The notes: generated by a model from the letters alone, not told the origin. Counted from the first letter of the stretch, positions 1,885 to 44,466 are shown. The stretch: 64,000 bases of DNA from Tepidanaerobacter syntrophicus (GCF_001485475.2 NZ_DF976999.1:96001-160000); one strand, 5' to 3'. Made by a program: numbers and translations.

Positions 1885-4353
1885 CTATATTTGCTTCGGA
1901 AGCGCCTCCCACAGCCGCATATCCTCCTGCCCAAGCGACCAGATGGCTATACCTCGCAGTTTCCACCGATAAGCCGCTTCATTTGCCCAGTAAACAAGGC
2001 TGTCTACATCCTGATAATACAGAATAGAAAAACCATCTGCATCTCCGAGGAAGAGACGGGATATCCAGATATTGATGTCTTTCGGTATAATCTTTACTTC
2101 ATAGTCATTACCGCAGGAAAGCGTCAAAAGCTGTGAGTGGAAAAAATCATAGTCCATCGAAATGTCCTCATTGCGAGTTATCGATTCCTCCACATCGCCA
2201 TTTACTGAAAACACCTGAAATTCATCATCCCACGTGACACCAGTGCGAGCAAGCCTGCCAAAGCTGGTTATAGTTCCATCCGGAAGTTCCACATCAAAAC
2301 GCTCGTATGGTTCATATACCCATGCATCGCCCAGTCTCAGTAGCTCGCATACCGTACGGTTGTCCGAGCAGTACCCTGCATAACCACTACCACCGATTAC
2401 ATTCACTGTGAAACGCAGGGTTGAAGCTGCACCAGAATATACTCTTACTTTATTGCCGCGTTTTCGCATCTCTATAGTATACATATTCGGATTAGCACGA
2501 AGATCGGCATCTGCAGTTTTTGAGAAACTGGTGGAGTAGCTACCAAGCAAGGAATTACCTTGATAAATCTCGACTCTTTGCGTGTCATAGTTTAAGCAGC
2601 AGAAAATATCGCCAAGGAATACCCCAGCCCGCCCGCTGCTATTTTGAGGGAAGGCCAGCCTTGCCCGGATATGAATATCGGAAAATCCGTCGTATTTCCA
2701 TGCAAGTTTTCCATATCCCTCAAGCTGGGAATATGGACGACTTTCTGTGCTATCTGGGTCCTGCCAAACATCCCATTCGCCATCCAGCACAGTCCAGTAG
2801 CTTTCAGGCAAGATGTTCCTGTCCCGAAAATCCTCATACCAAATAAGCGCCGAGTCGGGTTTTCTTCGCAACATTTCAAATGTCAGTTTAAAACCTCGAT
2901 CCGGCTCAACCATCACACCATTTACATCCTTGAACCGACGAGGAGAGAGCATAAAGCTGGCTTCACCGGCAAAGGGATACTCCGAAAATCCACTGCAAAC
3001 CCTAAAACCGTAAAACTGGACTCCCGGCACACCACCGCTTATGCTGACAGCATGCGTTCCCTCTTGGAGAAATACACCTTTTGCAAGTGTCAACCAGCAA
3101 ACTCTTCTCCAGTATGGCCACCATAAACGGTTCTCGCTGAAAGTCTTTGATTCACCATCAAGGGAAACGATAATCGCATTTTTGTCCCAGTAAGGAAAGC
3201 AAAGCTGTACTGCAATATCGTAATATCCCGCTTCTCTTATCTCAAAACGGTACTCTGCTGACGCCTGGTCATCTCCAAGTGAGGCCATCTCCTCAGTAAT
3301 AATGACATTTCCTTCGTATTCATCCGGAACTCCGTTCCTGTCAATATAAATGGTTCCGAACTCCGCTTTCTGCTCCTTGCCATAGCTTGTCAAATATCTT
3401 CGCCTGTTATAAACACCTTTTAGCAGCGGATATTCCCAGGATATAGCATCCCACCCTTCCATATAGTCATATACATGAGGAAGAGCCCAAGGTACTTTGT
3501 TATAGTCATCCCAGTAAGCCACAATTGGAATAAACGGCTGGGGCGGTGCATCGCCTGTGAAATTGTAAACCCCAGTCATCCAGTATTTTGCCGCATAGTA
3601 GGTATTAGACACTCCTCGATAGGTTATTCCAAGGTTTTCAGGTGTATCATGAATCCTCCAGTTCCAGCCATAAGCAGGCAACCCCATGAATATTTTGTCC
3701 GGTGACATAACGGAAACAGCATAATCATATATGCCCTCAAGCCAGTCACGAGGAGATACTGGGCCGGGAGCAGAACCCGCCCATGCCATGCCATAGCTCA
3801 TAATGGCGGCAGTATCGCAATAGTCGTTAAGATCGGCATAAACACACCAGTTTTCACCGCCCACCGAGCCTTGAACGCCGGTCATACCAGGCAGGCAGAT
3901 GTTGACAAGCTTTGTTGCATCATAAGACTTAACTGTATTGTATATATCACTAAATAGTGCATTCGCCGCATCCTTGTTTTCATAACCTCCACCGCGCTCA
4001 AGGTCAATATCTACCCCAGCGCACCATGGATACTTGTTCATTATTCGGATGATTTCAGTGAGAAACTTATCCTTTGCACCGTTTTCGTTGTTGCGAAGTG
4101 CAGTAAAAATATTGGCTATTCCATGATTCATAATTGTGAGCAGCCACTTAATATGAGGCCATTTCTGAATATACGGAAGCATGCTGCTGATGCTGGTACC
4201 GGTTTCAGTGATTGTACCTGTTGCGTCAACCTCAAAAGTAAAAATGCCTACCGTATCAAAGCGGTCGCCGTAGTCTCTAAGTGCTTCATACATTCGGGCA
4301 TTACCCATAAAACTCCACACCATGCAACGTTTGCCTTTTAAGAAATCCCTCAC
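1885..4353 (-). CDS. Tail-associated glycosyl hydrolase family 18 protein
   Basis: 822 residues. The N-terminal ~340 residues form a GH18 barrel: the catalytic DxDxE signature is intact at D115-I-D117-L-E119 (CAGVDIDLERGG), with the barrel-strand motifs FDTVGIFTF, AAIMSYGMAWAG and MGLPAYGWNWR. The middle (~350-470) resembles a jelly-roll carbohydrate-binding module, and ~490-690 is another beta-rich, concanavalin-like segment. GH18 enzymes cleave beta-1,4 linkages next to N-acetylglucosamine, so a tail protein of this kind may open or bind cell-wall polysaccharide at infection. The start overlaps the preceding gene by ATGA. The exact substrate cannot be read from sequence. Confidence 0.85.
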   Translation of the reverse strand: MRDFLKGKRCMVWSFMGNARMYEALRDYGDRFDTVGIFTFEVDATGTITETGTSISSMLPYIQKWPHIKWLLTIMNHGIANIFTALRNNENGAKDKFLTEIIRIMNKYPWCAGVDIDLERGGGYENKDAANALFSDIYNTVKSYDATKLVNICLPGMTGVQGSVGGENWCVYADLNDYCDTAAIMSYGMAWAGSAPGPVSPRDWLEGIYDYAVSVMSPDKIFMGLPAYGWNWRIHDTPENLGITYRGVSNTYYAAKYWMTGVYNFTGDAPPQPFIPIVAYWDDYNKVPWALPHVYDYMEGWDAISWEYPLLKGVYNRRRYLTSYGKEQKAEFGTIYIDRNGVPDEYEGNVIITEEMASLGDDQASAEYRFEIREAGYYDIAVQLCFPYWDKNAIIVSLDGESKTFSENRLWWPYWRRVCWLTLAKGVFLQEGTHAVSISGGVPGVQFYGFRVCSGFSEYPFAGEASFMLSPRRFKDVNGVMVEPDRGFKLTFEMLRRKPDSALIWYEDFRDRNILPESYWTVLDGEWDVWQDPDSTESRPYSQLEGYGKLAWKYDGFSDIHIRARLAFPQNSSGRAGVFLGDIFCCLNYDTQRVEIYQGNSLLGSYSTSFSKTADADLRANPNMYTIEMRKRGNKVRVYSGAASTLRFTVNVIGGSGYAGYCSDNRTVCELLRLGDAWVYEPYERFDVELPDGTITSFGRLARTGVTWDDEFQVFSVNGDVEESITRNEDISMDYDFFHSQLLTLSCGNDYEVKIIPKDINIWISRLFLGDADGFSILYYQDVDSLVYWANEAAYRWKLRGIAIWSLGQEDMRLWEALPKQI

Positions 4354-4925
4354 AACCGGTCACCGCCTTCCTGCATCTCCTGAAATTCAAAGAGCACCCG
4401 CGCCGATTTTCTCTCTTCCAGCTTCACTGTATGTTTGCTGTCCCATGCCGCAGAATATTGATAAAACCCATCCTTAGGAGTCTGACTTCCGTTTTTAAGG
4501 CATTGTCGGGTGGAAGCCTTGAGCGCCAGCTCATCGCCTGCATTAACCGGGTCAAGAAACTTTACCTTATGCGCACCCATACCTTGGGATAGTTCAATAC
4601 TCCCTGCGGCCATATCCTGTATAGGATAGATATAGCAGTCAAGACCAGCAGAAGTTTTGCCAAGGTTGAATAAGACTACAGTCTCCGCTGTTCGCACCAC
4701 ACCGTTATAATGCCGGGGCGGAACTGGCTGCCCATTTTCCTGCATCTTCGTAAGCATTTTACTCGTGTGGACGGTGTAGCCTGTCAATTGATCTCCTTCC
4801 TGAAGCTGCAGGTCGGTGAAATAGATTGATCCGGTGCAGTCGGAAATCTTAAGCGTCACAGTAACGCCCACCACATGCTTATTGCTTTTTGGTTGTATGG
4901 TTTCTGCAAACCTTGAAAACTGCAT
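4350..4925 (-). CDS. Phage tail (minor structural) protein
   Basis: 191 residues, not assigned to a named family. The N-terminal ~55 residues (IQPKSNKHVVGVTVTLKISD, then CTGSIYFTDLQLQEGD) clearly match the complete 64-residue product at 7131-7325, so the two are paralogues sharing a beta-rich module. The remaining ~130 residues are unique. It lies between the GH18 protein (ATGA overlap) and the tail tip genes, and is most likely a baseplate or fibre-attachment component. The erm cassette and an IS separate it from its paralogue, although in phage order the two would be adjacent. Confidence 0.7.
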   Translation of the reverse strand: MQFSRFAETIQPKSNKHVVGVTVTLKISDCTGSIYFTDLQLQEGDQLTGYTVHTSKMLTKMQENGQPVPPRHYNGVVRTAETVVLFNLGKTSAGLDCYIYPIQDMAAGSIELSQGMGAHKVKFLDPVNAGDELALKASTRQCLKNGSQTPKDGFYQYSAAWDSKHTVKLEERKSARVLFEFQEMQEGGDRL

Positions 4926-4944: not shown

Positions 4945-4973
4945 TTGACAAACATAGGCATCAATGCTAAAAT
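4945..4973 (+). promoter_or_regulatory. Consensus sigma-A promoter of the erm cassette
   Basis: TTGACA (4945-4950), a 17-bp spacer and TAAAAT (4968-4973), with a start point expected near 4980. It points rightward, against all surrounding phage genes, towards the leader peptide and erm. It is the best-matching vegetative promoter that I noticed in the window. Confidence 0.85.
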
Positions 4974-5010
4974 ATAATTTGATTTTATATTTGGAGGCTA
5001 GTATACACCT

Positions 5011-5040
5011 ATGTATGGTATTTTTCGTATTCGTAAATAA
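5011..5040 (+). CDS. erm leader peptide MYGIFRIRK
   Basis: A nine-codon ORF (ATG to TAA) with GGAGG at 4993-4997, about 30 nt after the predicted transcript start. Short leader peptides upstream of erm genes stall the ribosome when a macrolide is bound. This one carries IF..I as in the ErmC leader and an R-I-R as in the R/K-x-R/K motif of ErmD/ErmK-type leaders. Codons 4-10 form the left arm of the long hairpin that follows, so a stalled ribosome would block that hairpin. It is too short for normal gene callers. Confidence 0.75.
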   Translation: MYGIFRIRK

Positions 5041-5112
5041 GGGTGCACTGAACGAAAGATAGCTCATAGCAGCGTCTTTGTTTTTGTGCACCTTTTTTCG
5101 ATTACGAAAAAC
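5021..5112 (+). promoter_or_regulatory. Terminator-type attenuator of erm
   Basis: Two arms of about 28 nt (5021-5048 and 5086-5112) are imperfectly complementary. Their core, GGTGCAC (5042-5048) with GTGCACC (5086-5092), is followed by six T (5093-5098), as in an intrinsic terminator. A smaller inner hairpin pairs GAAAGA with TCTTT. The left arm overlaps the leader-peptide codons. The right arm (CACCTTTTTTCG) is also nearly complementary to the erm ribosome site, so translational masking is possible too. The inferred behaviour is termination without drug and read-through when the leader ribosome stalls. Confidence 0.75.
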
Positions 5113-5113
5113 G

Positions 5114-6303
5114 GGCTTTGTAAAGTAAACATGAAAGATTAAGAAGGGAAATCAGCCAATTGCTTCAAGCGACGAGGAAAAGCTTGCGTTTGCTTCTGGC
5201 AGAAAGGTTTAGGCCCGCAACTTGTGCTGGGGTCAGACCGTCAAGAGCGGAATGAGGGCGGACAAAATTGTAAAAGAAGAGAAAAACCGCGATAAGATTG
5301 TTGGCGGAATCGAACGAGGCAAATCCCTGTTTGGTTTTGTACCACGCCTTGAATTGCTTGTTAAAGCATTCGATCAGGTTGTTGGTAATATCATCGCTGA
5401 AGCTCTGGACCCGGATATGTTTCACGCCAAGCACTGCTTTTACAGGAACTTTGTAAGCACTGTAGCGGTCGGTGACGATGGCTCCGGGTTTACCGAGATG
5501 TTTAACGGAATTAAGTAAGGAAAACGCCTGAGGGCTGTCCCTGTGCCTGGAAAGGTGGAAGCTGAGAACAAAGCGGGTTTCGCTGTCCACAATTAACCAG
5601 AGGTAATACTTCATGCCTCGGATTTTTACTACAGTTTCGTCCGCGTGCCATTCGTCGGAGTTGAAATTGAGCGTTGGCATCAGTTCAAGCGCGATGTTTT
5701 GAAACAAAGGCGCGAATTTCGTACACCAGTTACTGATAGTAGTGTGGGAAACCTGAATATTCATGACAGTACGCAGAATCAAAGCAATATTACGGAAAGA
5801 GTTTTTTCCCAGATAAAACATCGACAGTGCCGTCAGGATAACATGCACTGGATAACGCATCCGCTTGAAATCTGTTTTCCCGGACAGCTTCGACATGGAA
5901 GGTGCCGTAACGGCAGCCGGTTTCGGCACAAAAATGGAATGGCCGCACTTCTTGTCGCAGCATTGGTAGTTTGAGTAGTATTTGTGGTCATGGTGAAGGA
6001 ACATGGCTTTTCCGCAGACAGGGCAAGTCGGATAAGGACGCACGCGCGGCCTTCCGGGTTTGTCAGCCGCATGGGCATCCGGCGCAAATTGATGCCCGCA
6101 TACACGGCAAAGATATTTCTGGTTTCCATATTTATCTTTGCCATAACGATAAAAGTTTTGATGGTTGTTGCATTTCGGACAGCAAATCTGGTATGATTTT
6201 GTCATGAGGACTCGTCTCCTTTCGGGAGTACATTGTTTTGTGTCAAAACCATTGTACCAGAAGGGCTGACGAGTCCTCAACTTTCATTTAACTTTACAAT
6301 ACG
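5114..6303 (-). mobile_element. IS6/IS240-like insertion sequence with 8-bp target duplication
   Basis: 1,190 bp. The inner terminal repeat TTGTAAAGT is perfect at both ends (5118-5126; complement of 6291-6299), and similarity continues over ~20 bp towards ATGAAAG. Four unmatched bases lie outside each repeat. Identical 8-bp direct repeats GAAAAACG flank the element (5106-5113 and 6304-6311); 8 bp is the duplication size of the IS6 family. Removing the element and one repeat rejoins the attenuator directly to the erm ribosome site, so the insertion is recent relative to the cassette. Its single gene is on the minus strand. Confidence 0.85.
5165..6205 (-). CDS. DDE transposase with N-terminal zinc fingers
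   Basis: 346 residues from an ATG behind AAAGGAGACGAGTCCT. The N-terminus holds CxxC pairs (CCPKCNN, CRVCG, CPVCG, CCDKKCG) forming one or two zinc ribbons like those of InsA-type transposases. The DDE catalytic core follows: D189 in HADETVV, D246 in TDRYSAY and E279 in NLIECFNK. All three residues are present and the frame is open throughout, so the enzyme is probably functional. It catalyses cut or copy of the surrounding IS. An in-frame extension to 6280 lacks a ribosome site and was not used. Confidence 0.92.
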   Translation of the reverse strand: MTKSYQICCPKCNNHQNFYRYGKDKYGNQKYLCRVCGHQFAPDAHAADKPGRPRVRPYPTCPVCGKAMFLHHDHKYYSNYQCCDKKCGHSIFVPKPAAVTAPSMSKLSGKTDFKRMRYPVHVILTALSMFYLGKNSFRNIALILRTVMNIQVSHTTISNWCTKFAPLFQNIALELMPTLNFNSDEWHADETVVKIRGMKYYLWLIVDSETRFVLSFHLSRHRDSPQAFSLLNSVKHLGKPGAIVTDRYSAYKVPVKAVLGVKHIRVQSFSDDITNNLIECFNKQFKAWYKTKQGFASFDSANNLIAVFLFFYNFVRPHSALDGLTPAQVAGLNLSARSKRKLFLVA

Positions 6304-6328
6304 GAAAAACGAAAGAGGTGTATTTTTT

Positions 6329-7117
6329 ATGCCCCAAAATAGAAAAAAAGGGACAACTCCTCCCATTTGGGTATCTCAAAACTTTATGACGAGTTACAAA
6401 ATCATCAACAGAATTATTCGCAGAACAACCCTTAACAGGGATGATCATGTTATTGAAATTGGCCCGGGAAAGGGTCATATAACAGGAATCTTGATTCAAA
6501 AATGCCGGAAAGTTTCGGCAATCGAAATCGACGGCCGTTTATATAATAAATTGACAGCAAAATTCAAGGACGTCAAAAATATCCGTATATATCATCAGGA
6601 CTTTATGAAGTGGAAGCTTCCTAAATTTGAAAATTATAAGGTTTTTTCAAACATCCCCTTTTGCTTCACTACGGATATTATGCGAAAATTGACGGAATGC
6701 AAAAACGCACCTTCTGAAGCATGGCTTACCATGGAAAAAGGCGCAGCCAAACGTTTTATGGGTAAGCCTTCAGAATCATTGCATTCCCTGCTTATAAAGC
6801 CCAGGTTTGATTTGGATATTGCTTACTATTTCATCAGGGAAGATTTTCATCCCAAACCGGGCGTTGATGTAGTACTTCTTCATCTTAAGAAAAAGAGTCC
6901 GCCGGATATCCCCGCAAATCAGTGGTTTGCCTATGAACAATTTGTTTCAAAGGCACTAAAATATGGATTCCGCAGTCTTTTTACAAGCAAGCAATTATCT
7001 AGGGCATTCCGTCAGGCTGGTGTGCAAAATAAAAATATTACTCCTGCAGAGGTTCTTTATGTTCAATGGCTTTGCCTTTTCCGATGCTACTGGGAGCATG
7101 TGCTAGGCAGAAAATGA
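6329..7117 (+). CDS. erm: 23S rRNA (adenine-N6) methyltransferase, Erm family
   Basis: 262 residues, ATG behind AAAGAGGTG. The SAM-binding motif is VIEIGPGKGH (41-50), the acidic loop is AIEIDGRLY, and the catalytic motif is N108-I-P-F. The C-terminal segment with FVSKAL, YGFRSLFTSKQ and the final LGRK is typical of Erm rather than of KsgA/RsmA housekeeping dimethylases. Erm methylates A2058 of 23S rRNA and gives macrolide-lincosamide-streptogramin B resistance. It is the only plus-strand gene within the phage structural region. The upstream leader and attenuator support a resistance role. An IS now separates it from its promoter, so present expression is uncertain. Confidence 0.88.
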   Translation: MPQNRKKGTTPPIWVSQNFMTSYKIINRIIRRTTLNRDDHVIEIGPGKGHITGILIQKCRKVSAIEIDGRLYNKLTAKFKDVKNIRIYHQDFMKWKLPKFENYKVFSNIPFCFTTDIMRKLTECKNAPSEAWLTMEKGAAKRFMGKPSESLHSLLIKPRFDLDIAYYFIREDFHPKPGVDVVLLHLKKKSPPDIPANQWFAYEQFVSKALKYGFRSLFTSKQLSRAFRQAGVQNKNITPAEVLYVQWLCLFRCYWEHVLGRK

Positions 7118-7130
7118 TTTTAGTGGCTCA

Positions 7131-7325
7131 TTACCCGTCCAATGTCCACCGGATCTCGCACACATGCGCGACCCATCCGGTGGAAACCGAGCCGCCTTGA
7201 AGCAATAAATCCGTAAAGTAAACTGTGCCGGTGCAGTCAGTGACGCACAGCCTGATGGTGATAGACTTGACTCTGCTGATACTTTTGGGAGAAATACTGT
7301 GTGCAATCTGATTGAAATATGCCAT
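7131..7325 (-). CDS. Small tail protein, paralogue of the N-terminus of the gene at 4350
   Basis: 64 residues, starting MAYFNQIAHSISPKS. It parallels the first ~55 residues of the 191-residue tail protein: ISPKS/IQPKS, then CTGTVYFTDLLLQGG/CTGSIYFTDLQLQEG, then STGW/LTGY. The reading frame stops 13 bp beyond the erm stop on the opposite strand. It may be a complete small protein, or a longer one cut short when the erm cassette entered. It follows the large tail protein closely (10 bp), so it belongs to the same late transcript. Confidence 0.65.
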   Translation of the reverse strand: MAYFNQIAHSISPKSISRVKSITIRLCVTDCTGTVYFTDLLLQGGSVSTGWVAHVCEIRWTLDG

Positions 7326-7335
7326 ATCATCACCC

Positions 7336-9858
7336 TCAAATCAGGTCTATAAACCTTGTTTCCGTTGAACCGTCCTCGTATTCAATGACTATCTCAACAC
7401 CAACTTGGCCGTTTTCGCCCTTTTCAAGGTTTTCGGAAGCAATCTGCGCTGAAAATGTATAACTTTTACGTGTTGCTGGGTATACCGTCTGTGACAGACT
7501 CTTTGTCATACCAGGTATACCAACAGCCTTGAAGGAAGCCGTTCCCGAAACGCCGTTTTCGGTAACCACCTCAAAGCCGGAATTGACCCAGTAGGCAAAA
7601 CCATCATCCGCTCTGGAATTGCGCAGATGGTTGAATGGTACCATATCTTTAATTTCCTGACGGTTTATCAACTCTGCTGAGGACAGTGCATCCGCTGCCT
7701 TGTCCCACTGTGCTGAAGAATCGCCGAGTTCCCGCAGTTTAGTTGAAAGCTCGATCACTGTTTTCCAAGGCTCCTGCAAGTTGTACTGCCTACGCACAAC
7801 ACGTGTCTTTACCAAAAGGCCTAGTTCTTTATCGTCCACTGTAACAATATCACCCAGTTTCCATGCTTCGTGCTCATAACCGGTTAGCGCAGATAAATCC
7901 ATTGCAGACAGTACATAAGAAACGCGAGGCTTCGAATATTCTGCAAGCCGCATTTTTGCATATTCCAGCATCTGATACGGATTTGTAAACGACGAACAAT
8001 CAAGCGTCGACACCCTCACTTCACTGGAAAAAGTGTAATCTTCCACGTATTCCTTACCTCCATTAATTGAAGCGAAGGTCAATCCGTCCTTTCCATAAGC
8101 ATAGAGCCTTGTCACTAATTCACGTGTATCGACTACCCGCTGAATACTTTTCAAATTCTTTCTATATGAAAAAAGCGCTCCGCTGTCGGTACCACTAAAA
8201 GTCAAAAGGTGTACCTGGCGGTTGGCGCTGTCAAACACCAGATCGCCGCCATAAATATTCTGTACGGTGCGAAGGATGGATAAGGCATTTTTTTCTGTAC
8301 ACTGCCATGTTCTCTTCGTGCTAACAGTAACATTTCCTACTGTCCAGCCTGTACCCAAAAGTGCATATTGCATCGGAACATCTGCAGTATCTGCATTGAA
8401 TTCCCTAGGTACTTTTTCCGCACTGAAAGACAGATCATAAAACACCGCTTCAGCATATACTTGCGTAATAACACGCCCATCTTCACCTTTATTATCCGTT
8501 AAGGTACGGATCCGGTAAATGTCATTTACGATTTGCACTTGTTTTTCATTTTCCAGTGTGCTTCTTTTTGGATCATGGAACGGAAGCTTGAATTCCAGCG
8601 TATCCGCACCATTCACCTCACCAGTGACAATGATATCAAAGGCATTTTCAAGAACAGCTTCCCATGCTCCGTTTTTGTCCAAAATCACAGGACGGGCAAA
8701 GCCTAACTTCTCATATGGCGCTTTCGGTATGTCATGAAGCTGTATTTCCAGAAGTTTTGGCGTCCTCAACGGATCGCTGCTGGTAAGGGTAACACGGAAC
8801 CTGATATATTGCCGATTTGGCGATTGAAGTTCACCGCTGGTTCCCACAGCCTGCCATGCAGACCATTCTTCAAGATCATCGCTTGTGCTGGTCTCTACTA
8901 GAGACACTGAAGTAACACCTGCAGTATATTCGCTTGTCACAGCTACACGACCGCTGCCCGATAATGCACATGGAACCGCCCTTGTATAAAGTACGCCACT
9001 TGCAGGATACTCGCCATCTGTTGCTTTAAGGGTGACTGCGCCAGGCTCTGCCAAAGCATCTACATCCGAAGCCGCATCCCCACCGTTTGCATGCAAAGAC
9101 GACTTAAAATATAACAGCAAATCATCAGCTGTAAGCTGTGAGTCCGTTTCCAGAAACCAGTCGTCGAAGCCTCCGGCATAGTAGTAGGTATTTGCATGCA
9201 TCCCCATAATAATGTCTGCTATACATTCCCGATTCAGCTCTCCCGAAAAGGAACGCACAGGCGACACCCAGGTTGCCCCGTCGCTGCGATCGCATATGAT
9301 GTTCTGTACCTTTTTGTTGCTTACTTCAATGATGGAGGCGATAAAATACCAGCCGCCATTTTTCAAGGTAATGGTAGCCGTTTCACTCTGGTCGTAGATT
9401 AGTGTGCCGGAGGAGTTATACAACATAAGCCTAAGTCTCCCTTGATAAAGTGAAACATAAAAAATTGGCTGACCGGGTCCTTGGCGGGTATTGAATATGG
9501 GTATATATGTCTGGCCGACCGAATAGGTGGTAGGATTAATCCAACCTCCTACAACAATCTTTTCGCCCAGATTGCTAAAGAAACTCCCATCATTTTCTGC
9601 TATAAGATGGGTCTTTTCAGAAGTCGGGTTAACGATGTTTTGCCTGAAGTATCTTCCGAATCTTCCAGCAATAAGGTTTGCTGATGTCCCTGACCAGCCG
9701 GAGATGGTAAAATGTCTGCCATGTCCCGATGAATCCATAAGCTGAAGATTTTCGTCTGGTGTTTTTTCATTAAATCGCCATAAAGCAGACGTCCTTGATG
9801 TTACAGGAAACTCACCGGTAAAATCCTCTTGGCTCGTTAGAATTGATTTTATCGCCAT
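7336..9858 (-). CDS. Phage tail tip protein (Tal / tail endopeptidase-like) with LamG domain
   Basis: 840 residues. Residues ~25-235 look like a concanavalin-like LamG fold (TSALWRFNE, LMDSSGHGRHFTISGW, VVGGWINPTTYSVG). From ~385 the sequence matches the siphophage Gp37/Tal-type tail tip protein (TGEVNGADTLEFKLPFHDPK, VNDIYRIRTLTD, AEAVFYDLSFSAE), including the KNALSILRTVQNIYGGDLVF segment. Such proteins close the tail tube and contact the host surface; the LamG part is a likely carbohydrate-binding adhesin. It follows Dit with 4 bp between. The N-terminal placement of the lectin-like domain is unusual. Confidence 0.85.
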   Translation of the reverse strand: MAIKSILTSQEDFTGEFPVTSRTSALWRFNEKTPDENLQLMDSSGHGRHFTISGWSGTSANLIAGRFGRYFRQNIVNPTSEKTHLIAENDGSFFSNLGEKIVVGGWINPTTYSVGQTYIPIFNTRQGPGQPIFYVSLYQGRLRLMLYNSSGTLIYDQSETATITLKNGGWYFIASIIEVSNKKVQNIICDRSDGATWVSPVRSFSGELNRECIADIIMGMHANTYYYAGGFDDWFLETDSQLTADDLLLYFKSSLHANGGDAASDVDALAEPGAVTLKATDGEYPASGVLYTRAVPCALSGSGRVAVTSEYTAGVTSVSLVETSTSDDLEEWSAWQAVGTSGELQSPNRQYIRFRVTLTSSDPLRTPKLLEIQLHDIPKAPYEKLGFARPVILDKNGAWEAVLENAFDIIVTGEVNGADTLEFKLPFHDPKRSTLENEKQVQIVNDIYRIRTLTDNKGEDGRVITQVYAEAVFYDLSFSAEKVPREFNADTADVPMQYALLGTGWTVGNVTVSTKRTWQCTEKNALSILRTVQNIYGGDLVFDSANRQVHLLTFSGTDSGALFSYRKNLKSIQRVVDTRELVTRLYAYGKDGLTFASINGGKEYVEDYTFSSEVRVSTLDCSSFTNPYQMLEYAKMRLAEYSKPRVSYVLSAMDLSALTGYEHEAWKLGDIVTVDDKELGLLVKTRVVRRQYNLQEPWKTVIELSTKLRELGDSSAQWDKAADALSSAELINRQEIKDMVPFNHLRNSRADDGFAYWVNSGFEVVTENGVSGTASFKAVGIPGMTKSLSQTVYPATRKSYTFSAQIASENLEKGENGQVGVEIVIEYEDGSTETRFIDLI

Positions 9859-23533: not shown

Positions 23534-24787
23534 TTAATCAATCTGTGTTTCCGCGTAAGGTATTTTTTCACTACCTGTTACCAAGAATACTGAATCTGCG
23601 CCAAATTGTGAAACATAGCGCTTTACAATCACATCGCAGTATTTCGAGTCAAGCTCCATCATAAAACAAACCCGCCCGGTCTGCTGTGCCGCAATCATTG
23701 TCGTACCAGAACCACCGAACAGGTCAAGAGTTAAATCTCCAATATGGGAACTATTGAGCATTGCCTTTGCTACAAGCGATACCGGCTTCATGGTAGGGTG
23801 CTCCTCCGATACTTTAGGACGGGGTATCTCCCAAACATCTGACTGTTTACGGTCTTTAAGCGGGCAAAGGCGTGTTCCTTCAAGCCAACCATACCAGATC
23901 GGCTCGTACTGGGTATGATAGTCCTTTCTTGATAGTACCAAGCTGTCTTTTTTCCATATAATTGTGCTCGACCAGTGATACCCTGCCTCCCGCATGACGT
24001 TCATCAAACTGCCCCATTCCTGAGCACTCATTACCACATAGGTCATGCATCCGGCTTCAGAAACCTCTTTCATGCATTTAAAAGCGCGCAATAAAAAAGC
24101 GCCGAATTCTTCGGTGCTCATATTGTCATTTAGAATTTGTCTTGGCTTCCAGCTTGGATGCCTGGTATCTGAACCGTAATCAACATTCCAGGGTGGGTCG
24201 GTGAAAACAAATCTCGCCTTTTGCCCATCCATCAGCTTTTGCACATCTGAAAGCAGTGTGCTGTCACCGCACATCAGACGGTGGCTGCCAAGTACCCATA
24301 TGTCGCCCTTTTTAGTGACCGGAATTTTAATCTCTGCAATTGCCTTTTCTGTATCGAAATTATCCTCTTTGACATTAGCGGTTGATTTATCACGGAACAA
24401 CTCATCAATTTCCGCAGCATCAAACCCGGTAAGAGAAACATCAAAGCCATCTTCATTTAAATCCATAAGCAGATCGGTCAAAAGCGGAATATCAAACTCA
24501 CCACTGATTTTATTCAGCGCGACATTGAGCGCCTTTTCCCGCTGTTCATCCAAATCAAGTACAACACAGTCGATCTCCTTATACCCCAAAGCTGTAAGTA
24601 CTTTATAACGCTGATGTCCGCCGACAATATTCCCGGTGCGTTTATTCCATATGACCGGCTCTACATATCCAAACTCTTCAATGGATCGGCGGAGTTTCTC
24701 GTATTCAGGATCGCCCGGTTTTAAGTCCTTCCGCGGATTATATTTAGATGGTTTTAGTTTTTCTGTTGGTATTTTCAGTATATCCAT
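23534..24787 (-). CDS. ParB-like domain fused to an N6-adenine-type DNA methyltransferase
   Basis: 417 residues. Residues 1-110 are a ParB/sulfiredoxin-like domain (YNPRKDLKPGDPEY, GYVEPVIWN and NIVGGHQR at 53-60). The methyltransferase follows with catalytic DPPW (RFVFTDPPWNVDYGS) before the SAM motif DLFGGSGTTMIAAQ, the order of the beta class. DPPW points to N6-adenine or N4-cytosine methylation. There is no restriction gene beside it, so it probably protects or marks phage DNA. Its ParB part is nearly the same as in the next gene, so the two arose by duplication. Confidence 0.9.
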   Translation of the reverse strand: MDILKIPTEKLKPSKYNPRKDLKPGDPEYEKLRRSIEEFGYVEPVIWNKRTGNIVGGHQRYKVLTALGYKEIDCVVLDLDEQREKALNVALNKISGEFDIPLLTDLLMDLNEDGFDVSLTGFDAAEIDELFRDKSTANVKEDNFDTEKAIAEIKIPVTKKGDIWVLGSHRLMCGDSTLLSDVQKLMDGQKARFVFTDPPWNVDYGSDTRHPSWKPRQILNDNMSTEEFGAFLLRAFKCMKEVSEAGCMTYVVMSAQEWGSLMNVMREAGYHWSSTIIWKKDSLVLSRKDYHTQYEPIWYGWLEGTRLCPLKDRKQSDVWEIPRPKVSEEHPTMKPVSLVAKAMLNSSHIGDLTLDLFGGSGTTMIAAQQTGRVCFMMELDSKYCDVIVKRYVSQFGADSVFLVTGSEKIPYAETQID

Positions 24788-24792
24788 AAATC

Positions 24793-26091
24793 TTAACCCT
24801 CCAGTTTGACGGCTTTTTCGCCGGTGAATTCCTCCCAGCGCTTAACAGCTAAATCACAGTAAACAGGGGATAACTCCATTGCGTAGCATTTACGCTCGGT
24901 CTGTTCAGCCGCAATTATAGTAGTGCCGCTGCCGGAGAACGGCTCAAGCACAATACCGCCTTTGTCGCTGTGCATTTTGATGCACCGCCATGGAAGCTCT
25001 ACAGGGAACATTGCAGGATGCTCCTTGTTTGCCCGGACAGTGGTCATCTCCCATATCCCGGCATAGCCCCATTTCTTGCGTTCTTCCTTTGTAAGCCGTT
25101 TCACAAATTTATAACTGTGTCCCGCAAAGGCTGAAAGCCATACATATTCCTGATCGTTATATTCCTCAGTCTCTCCTTTATTGCTGAAGGCTGAAATATA
25201 CTCATACTGCTGAACCGGCTTGTTTGAAACAAGATGATAAGGTCCTACGCCGAAATTTTGCCCTTGTTTCTTCCAAATGCGGATCCAGATAGGGCGGTAA
25301 CCATTGGCCAAAAACATATTCACACTGTAAACACTGGTGGGTTCAATAAACTGAGAGCCGGTGGCATAGAGATCACCTAAGTTCCAGCAGACAATATCTG
25401 CATACCTGCACAGGTTTCTAATCACTGGGCGTACTGTCTCGAACCATGGTTCAATCCCGGCCTTTTCATATTCTTTGCCTACCCCATATGGAGGGGAAGT
25501 CACTGCCATCTGTGCGTGACACCCTTCCATCAACTTCTCAAAATCCTCATCCTTAGTAGAGTCGCCGCACATCAAGCGATGATTCCCGAGAAGCCAGATA
25601 TCGCCCCGCTTCGTTACAGGCTCGCGCTGCACAATTTCCTCATGCGCTTTATCTATGTCAAAGCTGTCTTGTATCGCCTCTTTGGAGTACCATCGGTTAA
25701 GCAGTTCGTCTATTTCAGAAGCGTCAAACCCTGTAAGCGAAACATCAAATGCACCTGCGTCCAACTCAGCCATCAGTTCAGCCAGTTTATTCTCGTCCCA
25801 CTCTCCCTGAATCTTATTGAGGGCAAGATTAAGCGCTTTTTCTCTCTGCAGGTCAAGATCCACTACAACGCAATCTATCTCTGTCTGTCCCAAGTCCAGC
25901 AAAACCTTTAAGCGTTGATGCCCGCCTACCACATTACCTGTTTTTTGGTTCCAGATAACAGGCTCCACATAGCCAAATTCCTCTATTGACCGTTTTAGCT
26001 TTTCATATTCCTTATCGCCAGGTTTTAAATCCTTGCGCGGGTTGTATGCTGCTGGATTAAGTTTTTCAACAGATATTTTTTGTATGTTCAT
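24793..26091 (-). CDS. ParB-like domain fused to an N4-cytosine-type DNA methyltransferase
   Basis: 432 residues. The ParB-like N-terminus (YNPRKDLKPGDKEYEKLKRS, NVVGGHQRLKV) closely matches that of the gene at 23534. The catalytic motif is TSPPYGVG, a form usual for N4-cytosine enzymes, and the SAM motif is LEPFSGSGTTIIAAEQ. The target recognition region differs strongly from its neighbour, so the pair would methylate different sites. The start overlaps the small ORF at 26066-26248. An orphan methylase with no partner nuclease. Confidence 0.9.
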   Translation of the reverse strand: MNIQKISVEKLNPAAYNPRKDLKPGDKEYEKLKRSIEEFGYVEPVIWNQKTGNVVGGHQRLKVLLDLGQTEIDCVVVDLDLQREKALNLALNKIQGEWDENKLAELMAELDAGAFDVSLTGFDASEIDELLNRWYSKEAIQDSFDIDKAHEEIVQREPVTKRGDIWLLGNHRLMCGDSTKDEDFEKLMEGCHAQMAVTSPPYGVGKEYEKAGIEPWFETVRPVIRNLCRYADIVCWNLGDLYATGSQFIEPTSVYSVNMFLANGYRPIWIRIWKKQGQNFGVGPYHLVSNKPVQQYEYISAFSNKGETEEYNDQEYVWLSAFAGHSYKFVKRLTKEERKKWGYAGIWEMTTVRANKEHPAMFPVELPWRCIKMHSDKGGIVLEPFSGSGTTIIAAEQTERKCYAMELSPVYCDLAVKRWEEFTGEKAVKLEG

Positions 26092-40115: not shown

Positions 40116-41869
40116 ATGTATAATCAATTTTTTAATACTGTTCTTGAAGTACTAAAACAGGATCAACGTTTTTTTACTGATAACGGGGAATTGCTTCGCA
40201 ATTCCGTATACGAGGCAGCAATGCAAATGGATTCAAAACTCATTAAATTGCTTTTATCTAACGAAGAAACAAAAAAGCGCTTTTTTGCCGACGTTGAAGG
40301 TGTTCTCGTTTTTGATAAAGTCGGCTTCGGTTGGGTTATCAATAATAGGCAATTCTTGCCTGACTCATATACTCGTTATAAAAATAAAATTGGTCTTGTA
40401 AATAGCCGGGATGAGTACATATCTACCTCAAAGGATGTTGTACTCGTTTTCCCTTATAAAGACTGCGTTCTTGAAGGAGGACAAACGAAAGAAGATCAAA
40501 AGCGTGATGAGATATTCTATAATGAAACACTTGCACCGGATGAAGTGGACAGGCTTCTTTATCCTAAGGTGTTCACAAATGCAAAACGTTATACTGCTGA
40601 CGGAGAAGAATCGATTACAGAGTTTAAAGATACCGATAACCTTATAATTAAAGGTAACAATCTTCTTGCTATTGCTTCATTATTGAAAAGATATGAAGGC
40701 AGAGTAAATTGTATTTATATAGATCCGCCTTTTAATACAGGAAATGATAGCTTCAATTATAATGATAAATTTAGTCGTTCAACATGGCTTACATTTATGA
40801 AAAACCGATTGACTATTGCTCAGAAATTATTAACCAGGGACGCAATATATTTATACATATAGATGTAAATCAATCTCATTACTTAAAAGTGCTATGTGAT
40901 GAAATTTTGGGGGAAAATAATTTCGTAGAAGAATTAATCTGGGCATATGGTTCTCCATCTGGTGGAAGAGCTGCAACTCCTAAACCCGTTAATATTCATG
41001 ACTATATACTTCATTATTGTAAAGACTATCCTTCAAGAAAACAGTATAGAGTTTACACACCTTATAGTGAGAAATATATAGCAGATTGGTTTAAATATAA
41101 AGATGAAGATGGTCGAGTATATCAAAAACGTCAGCGTGGAAAAGATGAAAACGGTAATACAATTTGGGAAAAACAATATCTAGACGAAAGCAAAGGTATT
41201 CCATTGTCAACTGTATGGACAGATATAAAACAAGTATATGCCGATCCTCGTGCATATAAAGAAAATCAAGCTAAGCATACAGAAATCATTCGAGCCTTTA
41301 CTGGTGGGCAGAAACCAGAAGCGTTAATTAAGCGTATTCTAGAGATGTGCACAGATGAAGGAGATTTGGTCTTAGATTTCCATCTTGGTACTGGTACAAC
41401 AGCGTCGGTTGCACACAAAATGAATCGCCGATATATAGGTGTAGAACAAATGGACTATATAGATGAATTCGTAGTGAACAGATTAGTTGATGTTATTAAA
41501 GGCAATAATACTGGTATTTCCAAAGATGTTAACTGGCAAGGTGGCGGTTCTTTCGTATATTGTGAGCTTGCAAAGCTAAATCAAAATTTTGCTGACCGAA
41601 TACAAACTGCTGAAAATGATAAAGAGCTTGCTGATATTTGGCGTGAAATAAAAAAGACCGGTTTTATAAGTTGCTATGTAAATCCTAAAGACATTAATCC
41701 TGAAGCAGAGGATTTTAAATCTCTCTCATTTGAAGAAAAAAAGCGTTTATTTATGGAGCTACTAGATAAAAATCAACTTTACGTTAATTACTGTGATATT
41801 GATGATGAAGATTATAATATTTCAGACGCTGACAAGGCATTTACAAAAAGCTTTTACGAGGGGGTATAA
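40116..41869 (+). pseudogene. Type III restriction-modification DNA methyltransferase (Mod), one-base frameshift
   Basis: Both halves are clearly one beta-class methyltransferase of ~580 residues. The first frame carries the catalytic IYIDPPFNTGNDSFNYNDKF, and the second IFIHIDVNQSHYLKVLCDEI and the SAM motif VLDFHLGTGTTASV. The first frame ends at TAG (40860-40862). Inserting one G at about 40842 (GAC GGC instead of GAC GC) gives LLTRDGNIFIHID, the family consensus. No simple repeat lies there, so classical phase variation is unlikely. Sequencing error is possible. Without Mod the Res subunit should be inactive. The AT-rich codon use differs from the phage. Confidence 0.88.
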
Positions 41870-41871
41870 TA

Positions 41872-44466
41872 GTGTACCTATACGAGCAAATCGAACAAGC
41901 AAAGAATTTTGGAGCATACAAAGAATTACCAAAATACATTCCTGATAATCTGAATCCATCTTTTGAATTACGCCCGTATCAAAAAGATGCTTTTTGTAAT
42001 TTTATAACATATTTTGAAAATGAAGCACTTTGTAGAAAGCCAACACAGACACTTTTTCATATGGCAACCGGTAGTGGAAAAACGCTAATTATGGCAGGAC
42101 TTATGCTATATCTTTTTAAACAGGGATATAGAAATTTTCTATTTTTTGTAAATCTATCTAATATAGTACAAAAAACAAAAGAAAATTTCTTAAATCGTAC
42201 TTCATCGAAGTATCTTTTTGCTGATGAAATTAATATTGATGGAGAAAAAGTTAAAATTCGTGAAGTTAATAACTTCCAAGCAAGCGATCCGAATGCGATA
42301 AATATTTGCTTTACAACTATACAAGGGCTTCATTCAGATATATGGTTTGTCAAAGAAAACTCTGTTTCTATAGATGATTTTCGTGATAATAAAATAGTTC
42401 TTATATCGGACGAAGCCCACCATCTCAATGTTGATACTCGCCGCGGCAACAAAGAAGAAATTGAAAATTATAGGAGCTGGGAAAGTACAGTTAAGAGTAT
42501 TTTTGAAATGAACAATCAAAATGTATTACTCGAATTTACTGCAACATGTGACCTTGCAAACGAAAATATAAAACGCGAGTATGAGAACAAAATAATATTC
42601 GATTATCCTCTAAAAAAATTTAGAGACGATGGATACTCAAAGGAAATACGTACTATGCGTTCTGACATATCAATTATGGAACGAGCATTACAGGCGATAG
42701 TATTAAGTCAATACCGCTTAAAAATATTCGAAGATTTTCGCATAAGATGTAAACCAGTCGTTCTATTTAAGGCTAAGACTATTGCTGAAAGCAAAGCGTT
42801 TATGAAAGAGTTTATTGATACCATAAAAAATCTGAATGGTTCAGTACTAGAACGACTGGCAGATATTACGGAAATAGATACTATGAAAAAGGTTTATTCG
42901 TATTTTGAAAAAAACGGAATAACCTTTGAGCAATTAGCACAAGAACTAAAAGAAGCTTTTGGGGAGGATAAGTGTCTTTCAGTTAACGAAGATGCTGAGG
43001 CCGAAAAGAATCAAATAATTGTCAATTCGCTTGAAGATGCTAATAATCCTTACCGAGCAATTTTTGAAGTAAGAAAACTAGATGAAGGTTGGGATGTACT
43101 AAATTTGTTTGACATTGTACGTCTTTATGAAACTCGAGATGCCAAGAATGGCATCCCCGGGAAAACGACAATAGCAGAAGCACAGCTTATAGGACGAGGA
43201 GCAAGGTATTATCCGTTTAAGTTGGAAGAATGGCAGAATAAATATCAGCGAAAATTCGATAAAGATTTGGATCACCCCCTTCGCATCTGTGAGGAACTAT
43301 ATTATCATTGTCAAAACGAATCTCGTTATATTGCCGAATTATATAGGGCGCTAAAAGAGATTGGTATCGATATGGAAAACACAGTCACTAGAACATATAA
43401 ATTAAAGGATGAGTTTAAGGCAGATCCGCTTTATCAGCAAGGATATGTATTCTATAATGAAAGACTAATAAAAAGCAGATCAGAGGTTACCGGTCTTTCA
43501 CCTACTATACGCAATCATACATATGATGTTACTATTGCAACTGGACGAGCAGCTGAGGATACATTAATGTTAGGCGAAGAAGGAACAAAAGAGAGTTCGG
43601 TAACAACAACATACACTAAACATACATCTTTTGCTGAAATAGCGAGGATTAATTATTCGATTGTACATCGAGCTCTTCGTAAGTATGATGTGTTTAAGTT
43701 CAATAGACTAAAAAGCTATTTCCCACAATTAAAATCTATTAACCAATTTATCTTTGACGATAAGTATCTTGGAAATGTAAAAATAGATATTACATCAAGA
43801 TATGAGGATCCTTCACCTGCTATCCTTTATGTGGCTTGCGTCAATGTTTTGAAAAAAATAGCTACTTCAATCTCTAATATTGAAGAAACTTATGAAGGTT
43901 CTAAAACATTCATGGCAAAATATATTCGAGAGGTATTTAAAGATAAGCGGGTAAATTATACTAATCCTACCGATGGAGGCTTAGGTGTTTCACAAAACGA
44001 TAATACTGTTCCTATGGCCTGGAAGCTTGATTTATCTAAAGAAGATTGGTTTGTGTTTGAAGATAACTATGGAACATCGGAAGAAAAAGCATTTATTGCG
44101 TATTTTAAGCAGTATGTCGATAAACTAAAAGCTAAGTATGATAAAGTTTATCTAATACGAAATGAACGTCAATTAGCAATATATTCTTTTGATGGTGGTG
44201 AACGCTTCGAACCAGATTATCTATTATTTTTACATTCGCCTAAAGTTAATGGGTATGAGCAACTACAGATATTTATTGAGCCGAAAGGTACCCACCTTGT
44301 CAAAAATGATAGTTGGAAAGAAGATTTTTTATTGCAACTTGAGTCAAATGCGATTCCTATAGTTAAATTTGCAGACGACAATAATTACAGGATTTGGGGA
44401 TTCCATTTCTTTAACAGGGATTTAAGACGTAAAGAGTTTGATGAAGATATGAACCGACTTTTATAA
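41872..44466 (+). CDS. Type III restriction enzyme, Res subunit
   Basis: 864 residues, GTG start two bases after the mod stop, behind GAGGGGG. The SF2 helicase part has Walker A HMATGSGKTLIMAG, LISDEAHHLN and LIGRGARYYPF. The C-terminal PD-(D/E)xK nuclease is seen as FEPDYLLFLHS followed by LQIFIEPKG. With Mod it cleaves DNA that carries two unmethylated asymmetric sites. Full length and in frame, unlike the broken mod in front. Strongly AT-rich, like mod. Confidence 0.93.
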   Translation: MYLYEQIEQAKNFGAYKELPKYIPDNLNPSFELRPYQKDAFCNFITYFENEALCRKPTQTLFHMATGSGKTLIMAGLMLYLFKQGYRNFLFFVNLSNIVQKTKENFLNRTSSKYLFADEINIDGEKVKIREVNNFQASDPNAINICFTTIQGLHSDIWFVKENSVSIDDFRDNKIVLISDEAHHLNVDTRRGNKEEIENYRSWESTVKSIFEMNNQNVLLEFTATCDLANENIKREYENKIIFDYPLKKFRDDGYSKEIRTMRSDISIMERALQAIVLSQYRLKIFEDFRIRCKPVVLFKAKTIAESKAFMKEFIDTIKNLNGSVLERLADITEIDTMKKVYSYFEKNGITFEQLAQELKEAFGEDKCLSVNEDAEAEKNQIIVNSLEDANNPYRAIFEVRKLDEGWDVLNLFDIVRLYETRDAKNGIPGKTTIAEAQLIGRGARYYPFKLEEWQNKYQRKFDKDLDHPLRICEELYYHCQNESRYIAELYRALKEIGIDMENTVTRTYKLKDEFKADPLYQQGYVFYNERLIKSRSEVTGLSPTIRNHTYDVTIATGRAAEDTLMLGEEGTKESSVTTTYTKHTSFAEIARINYSIVHRALRKYDVFKFNRLKSYFPQLKSINQFIFDDKYLGNVKIDITSRYEDPSPAILYVACVNVLKKIATSISNIEETYEGSKTFMAKYIREVFKDKRVNYTNPTDGGLGVSQNDNTVPMAWKLDLSKEDWFVFEDNYGTSEEKAFIAYFKQYVDKLKAKYDKVYLIRNERQLAIYSFDGGERFEPDYLLFLHSPKVNGYEQLQIFIEPKGTHLVKNDSWKEDFLLQLESNAIPIVKFADDNNYRIWGFHFFNRDLRRKEFDEDMNRLL

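Follow-up and report, generated by a model that had tools for sequence, protein, structure and literature searches.

The window analysed here, a 64,000-nucleotide stretch of the Tepidanaerobacter syntrophicus genome, is prophage from position 1 to ~40 kb. Matches to PHROGs place terminase, portal, major head, major tail, tape measure, Dit, minor tail proteins and endolysin in this order on the minus strand, and the left flank of the prophage is partly N in the genome sequence. Within the tail operon, between the small open reading frame p64 and the tail protein tail191, lies a cassette on the opposite strand that comprises a promoter, a short leader, a terminator hairpin and an intact erm gene (Table 1). 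An IS6-family insertion sequence (IS) between two copies of a target-site duplication interrupts it. The plus strand downstream of erm, up to position 7400, is devoid of terminator-like sites.

The positions that a preliminary description of this DNA had assigned to the promoter, 9-codon leader, terminator, IS, repeats and intact erm were all confirmed. Its two measurements, an IS of 1,190 bp with GAAAAACG repeats and a spacing of 32 nt after removal, are exact: once the IS and one repeat are taken out, 15 + 17 nt separate the T-run from the erm ATG. It had also proposed a search for the same phage without the IS, and such phages, with erm uninterrupted at the p64/tail191 junction, are present in Tepidanaerobacter EBM-38, Syntrophomonas zehnderi and Thermoclostridium caenicola (L004, L005, L006). 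Joining the flanks of the IS by script reproduces the arrangement found in these three loci. The promoter region is kept in L004, L005, L006 and L012 and is recognisable in L009-L011.

Table 1. Features of the interrupted erm cassette and neighbouring tail genes, in window coordinates
Feature	Position	Strand	Details
Minor tail protein GH18tail, 822 aa	1885-4353	-	PHROG 3432, E 0
tail191, tail protein, 191 aa	4350-4925	-	One side of cassette; PHROG 12827, E 1e-90
erm-leader promoter	4945-4973	+	TTGACA (4945-4950)-17-TAAAAT (4968-4973), TG before -10; 11/12
Leader Shine-Dalgarno (SD) TTTGGAGG	4990-4997	+	GGAGG invariant across aligned loci
Anti-SD arm ATACACCT	5003-5010	+	Complementary to erm SD region AGGTGTAT (6316-6323); paired with it in MFE folds of uninterrupted loci
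Leader peptide MYGIFRIRK*	5011-5040 (ORF)	+	9 codons; R-X-R arrest-type motif at residues 6-8
Terminator hairpin	5041-5098	+	GGGTGCAC (5041-5048) / GTGCACC-T6 (5086-5098); arms covary between loci
3' arm CGATTACGAAAAACG	5099-5113	+	Partner of leader codons 5-8; covaries with leader between loci
Target-site duplication GAAAAACG, 8 bp	left 5106-5113, right 6304-6311	+	Flanks the IS
IS6-family element, 1,190 bp	5114-6303	-	Terminal sequences GGCTTTGTAAAG / CGTATTGTAAAG agree at 9/12
IS6-family transposase, N-terminal zinc ribbon	5165-6205	-	NF033587, 186 bits (cutoff 125); PF13610
erm SD region AGAGGTGTAT	6314-6323	+	AGAGGTGT invariant in 10 aligned loci
erm, 23S rRNA adenine-N6-methyltransferase, intact, 262 aa	6329-7117	+	
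p64, small tail-operon ORF	7131-7325	-	Other side of cassette; related to N-terminus of 4350-4925
Minor tail protein, 840 aa, phage-family marker	7336-9858	-	PHROG 3475, E 0; 80 IMG/VR relatives

Some other genes of the window stood out. Two adjacent, similar ParB-like/DNA methyltransferase fusion genes, judged by eye, lie in the prophage at 23534-24787 and 24793-26091. Type III restriction-modification-like genes occupy 40116-44466, and their methylase is split into overlapping frames (40116-40862 and 40784-41869) by a frameshift without an obvious repeat.

A deeply diverged Erm with a conserved attenuator

The Erm of the window scores 236 bits against the NCBIfam Erm model NF000499 (cutoff 212) and fails the KsgA model TIGR00755 (125 bits, cutoff 171). 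These profile scores rule out a misannotated KsgA, and the host genome (2.43 Mb) encodes a separate KsgA-like protein. The catalytic motifs read SQNF, EIGPGKGH and NIPF. Erm(T), Erm(B), Erm(C) and Erm(53) belong to the same NF000499 family and share the motifs SQNF, EIG.GKGH and NIPF/Y, but none of the named Erms compared shares more than 39% identity with the window Erm (35-38% for Erm(T), Erm(B) and Erm(53)), and its conserved C-terminal YVQWLCLFRCYWEHVL was not found in those four. A named Erm class usually needs 80% amino-acid identity, a level of which the window Erm, at no more than 38-39%, falls well short. Phylogenetically, it groups in a clostridial Erm clade (ultrafast bootstrap 96). 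By these profile and identity measures, the window erm is a new, deeply diverged Erm class, with methylation of A2058 as its predicted activity. The phage copies are under purifying selection, with a dN/dS of 0.11 against L004 and 0.15 against L005.

Damaged relatives of the gene are also found. Only remains of the two flanking tail genes accompany the erm of Acetivibrio straminisolvens (L012, 5546-7000), which has NIPS instead of NIPF; this copy thus appears to be a remnant of the phage cassette in decay. A truncated erm of 191 aa with an intact leader lies in an unrelated context at L013:601-1180, and erm-family fragments, mostly C-terminal, occur in unrelated contexts at L014:5505-5723, L015:6001-6240, L016:6001-6213 and L017:6001-6108.

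Upstream of erm, the RNA of positions 4982-5113 folds with a z-score of -5.7, and none of 200 shuffled sequences folds as well; uninterrupted loci likewise fold better than their shuffles (z = -3.1 to -6.9). An SD, a short leader with its stop, a terminator and the erm SD GAGGTGT are common to L004-L007, L009-L013, L116 and L118. Leaders upstream of Erms that are 57-97% identical to that of the window read MYGIFRIRK, MCGIFRIRK, MCSIFRIRK, MSGIFRTRQ, MCASIRIRK, MCTFVRIRR, MYASMRLRK, MFGIWFIRIR and MFGTSNRIRK. In the aligned loci, all leaders end in R-[ILT]-R followed by at most one residue, while their N-termini vary. Besides the window, 12 loci have a leader that ends with R-[ILMT]-R, and some of them encode Erms of no more than 26-31% identity. 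The preliminary description had pointed to two leader motifs, IF..I and R-I-R; the latter holds up as an R-X-R that is invariant at the C-terminus, and the former is not invariant. ErmC-type IFVI stalling as the main leader motif is ruled out, since R-X-R alone is invariant.

The pairing partners change together. Among eight mutually divergent loci, each terminator arm finds its best pairing partner within its own locus (exact permutation p = 5e-5), and so do the leader codons with the segment that follows the T-run (permutation p = 0.0008). RNAalifold, run on 10 sequences, recovers the terminator and the anti-SD stem with six pairs changed on both sides; it favours an alternative in which the T-run pairs with CGAAAGA. 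All uninterrupted loci that were folded show the erm SD paired in their MFE structures, and this pairing hardly varies, which places it beyond the reach of the covariation test. In L013, the anti-SD pairing is built from another leader segment. The conserved structure thus runs, by prediction, beyond the terminator to the erm SD, which puts the IS inside the attenuator. It had been described as lying exactly between attenuator and gene; on this reading, it cuts through the former.

A covariance model of the attenuator (R1) matched seven of 398 genomes of the phylum, and all matches lie upstream of erm. Two of the loci, found only via this RNA model (L136 and L137), have the leaders MGICFIRMR and MGIRFIRIR in the same leader-terminator-SD arrangement, upstream of Erms that are 26-31% identical to that of the window. 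Because the matches include such distant Erms, the model indicates that the leader-attenuator predates this Erm clade and, within the 398-genome sample, is specific to erm. Leader and hairpin, whose conservation in homologous cassettes the preliminary description had made the touchstone of its reading, both proved conserved, and by folding and covariation the leader-attenuator is a real, conserved switch. An Rfam search of the window returned no match, and a scan of IMG/VR for the leader sequence found none. One exact match to the 18-mer CGAAAGAGGTGTATTTTT (L139), near terL of a related erm-less phage, was rejected as about what chance would give in a collection of this size.

The closest parallel is tlrB (yxjB) of Bacillus subtilis, in which a leader-terminal RYR, its middle residue lying in the P site, stalls ribosomes that have bound tylosin; the stall blocks both termination and SD sequestration (PMC6851288). 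Both systems have a leader ending in R-X-R and a terminator right behind it, and a longer hairpin, which in tlrB masks the SD of a 23S rRNA methyltransferase gene, is predicted for the uninterrupted erm cassette. Because this modelled hairpin would sequester the ribosome-binding site of erm as well, the attenuator resembles the dual one of tlrB. The two differ in that tlrB is chromosomal and serves G748 methylation (RlmA-II family), whereas the window encodes an Erm carried as phage cargo.

With stalling geometry and pairing computed for the window and the mechanism modelled on the geometry of tlrB, the switch would work as follows. Without drug, ribosomes would complete the 9-codon leader and the terminator hairpin would halt most transcripts; in read-through transcripts, the extended hairpin, which pairs ATACACCT with the erm SD AGGTGTAT, would mask the erm start. 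A macrolide-bound ribosome would stall at R6-I7-R8, with its leading edge ~15 nt past the P site, near 5044, and thus over the base of the terminator 5' arm (5041-5048). It would also cover the part of the leader whose pairing partner follows the T-run. With the terminator 5' arm covered, transcription would go on and the erm SD would be released.

Another type of attenuator is known from ermK/ermD and mef(E)/msr(D), which combine a short +X+ leader with transcription attenuation; the leaders are MTASMRLR for mef(E) and MTHAMRLR for ermK (PMC4335068). The window attenuator could likewise be purely transcriptional, with the erm SD pairing incidental: its strong, covarying terminator with T-run comes straight after the leader stop, and its leader motif resembles the MRLR of ermK and mef(E); the leader of one relative reads MYASMRLRK. 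However, the SD pairing recurs in all uninterrupted MFE folds and is made from a different leader segment in L013. A purely transcriptional switch is therefore regarded as distinctly unlikely. In layout, the cassette differs from ermK and mef(E) in that its terminator arm starts right behind the leader stop and its structure is predicted to continue as far as the erm SD.

Two insertions that sever leader and gene

The element in the window is assigned to the IS6 family by a DDE transposase above the model cutoff, an 8-bp target duplication and terminal inverted repeats, and a search of the genome found no second copy. It parts the erm SD from the leader and terminator by 1.19 kb, which would abolish regulation of the gene; the leader retains its own terminator. 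The preliminary description had allowed that the IS either silences erm or frees it from induction. On the erm strand, the IS end bears no promoter-like sequence, with a best score of 7/12 against a median of ~8 for random 150-nt stretches, in a scan that could miss weak or non-sigma-70 promoters. The predicted transposase promoter faces away from erm. The IS thus probably leaves erm unregulated and weakly expressed or silent.

The alternative is constitutive expression from a promoter in the IS end or created by it. Loss of the ermC leader is known to give constitutive resistance (PMC10655708), and the insertion leaves the erm SD without its pairing partner, in a region (6250-6360) that folds no better than shuffles (z -0.2). 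A different IS end next to erm in another phage carries a promoter-like TTTACT-17-TATAAT. Against this stand the below-median promoter score at the IS6 end and the direction of the transposase promoter, away from erm. With no outward promoter visible there, silencing is favoured over constitutive expression: we lean towards a loss of erm expression and consider constitutive expression unlikely, with residual read-through making up the remainder.

The other promoter-like sequence belongs to a second insertion, in the complete genome G155 (L123 and L124 joined, about 19.1-20.7 kb). Here the loop of the attenuator hairpin has taken up an element that, judging by the look of its two ORFs, is of the IS3 type, which independently repeats the situation of the window. 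Promoter and leader are intact on one side, the 3' arm and erm lie on the other, and the TTTACT-17-TATAAT is at the erm-proximal end. Judged from these layouts, the leader is severed from erm twice, by different elements and at different points.

Attenuators split by an IS in both the window and G155, together with the degraded and truncated copies elsewhere (NIPS in L012, L013-L017), might mark the cassette as a relic, degenerating inside a prophage that is itself defective. However, erm is intact in the window and in other phages, the dN/dS values are those of a gene under constraint, and the tail genes are intact, making a relic very unlikely.

A cargo site in the tail operon

The genes that border the cassette, p64 and tail191, resemble each other at their N-termini (~40% identity), which makes them paralogues on either side of the site. 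Of 82 loci in which both genes are present, 69 have an empty junction and 13, including some near-duplicates, a filled one; the next junction, tail191/GH18tail, is filled in seven loci. Among the other cargo at p64/tail191 are DUF2971 (PDC-S31), PDC-S05, FRG (weak PDC-S15), PIN_12, CotH and an XRE regulator accompanied by a membrane protein (L049:4833-5939, L065:6407-7543, L069:2982-4040, L060:3560-4699, L050:10845-12977, L023:7532-8219 and L054:11003-11458), where PDC families are candidate defence systems only. Shedu SduA (E 7e-112) lies between tail191 and the next tail gene at L044:11406-12221 and in L045 and L088, with a divergent case in L061. The only cargo seen opposite to the tail strand is erm; the rest is on the tail strand, also in L102, where the locus is reversed. 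These gene arrangements mark the junction as a hotspot for cargo within the tail operon.

Two lineages of this phage family carry erm. Lineage A comprises the window, L004, L005 and L006, and lineage B comprises L008, L009 and G155. The gene occupies the same junction in the same orientation in both. L008 is a MAG labelled Pseudomonadota whose erm is 100% identical to a copy in a Bacillota MAG, and the bin label is probably wrong.

A single acquisition by the common ancestor of A and B, followed by co-divergence with the tail genes, would account for the shared junction and orientation and for the similar divergence of the Erms (63% identity) and the flanking proteins (63-73%); an AU test does not reject monophyly of the A and B genes (p = 0.097). 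However, the erm of lineage B shares more identity with one from Pelotomaculum that is not in a phage (77%) than with lineage A, the cassette boundaries of A are unlike those of B, and on each side there are relatives that lack erm, with an unoccupied site and tails of 98-99% identity. A single origin is thus rather doubtful, and independent acquisition by the two lineages is favoured as probable, though not proven.

Resistance genes on phages are reported to be rare (PMC9723715). Prophage Phi1207.3, a temperate siphovirus with the macrolide resistance genes mef(A)-msr(D) (PMC9927172), differs in carrying efflux and ABC-F genes in streptococci, whereas the window holds erm at a cargo site in a tail operon. 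Streptococcus suis phage records with erm(B) also place an erm in phage; their Erms are 34-36% identical and lie near record ends. Scans of IMG/VR for the erm protein found no viral contig that carries the window type. The preliminary description had called the placement unusual; it does lie as cargo in a tail operon, but it is no one-off, given the hotspot and the divergent erm at the same site in another lineage. Its central proposal, an erm unit with its own regulation carried as IS-split cargo in a prophage tail operon, is supported.

The gene lies amid phage genes, is missing in close relatives and has its own promoter, as expected of a moron; a downstream terminator of its own, a further moron trait, is not seen up to position 7400. 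Taken together, the evidence makes it very probable that erm is a lysogenic-conversion gene of a new Erm class, with its own promoter and dual attenuator, at a tail-operon cargo site of a clostridial tailed-phage family, and from this we infer stalling, induction, methylation and, in the window, silencing. The resistance gene here is regulated, structured cargo at a defined site in phages of distant host genera (Tepidanaerobacter, Syntrophomonas and Thermoclostridium). To the known Erms the cassette contributes a deeply diverged class, whose conserved attenuator escaped the Rfam search of the window. Versions with an empty site, an intact cassette and an IS-interrupted cassette form a natural series in which cost-free phage carriage of resistance, and the effect of an IS on a macrolide switch, may be followed.

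More tentatively, the p64/tail191 junction and its neighbour may form a general cargo dock of a widespread clostridial phage family, one that has repeatedly acquired genes from which the lysogen benefits. Most of these would be cargo other than erm, defence candidates included, but on at least two independent occasions the dock would have received an erm with a ribosome-sensing switch, which ISs have repeatedly rewired. If so, regulated macrolide resistance would have, outside the clinic, both a reservoir and a place of remodelling in these phages.
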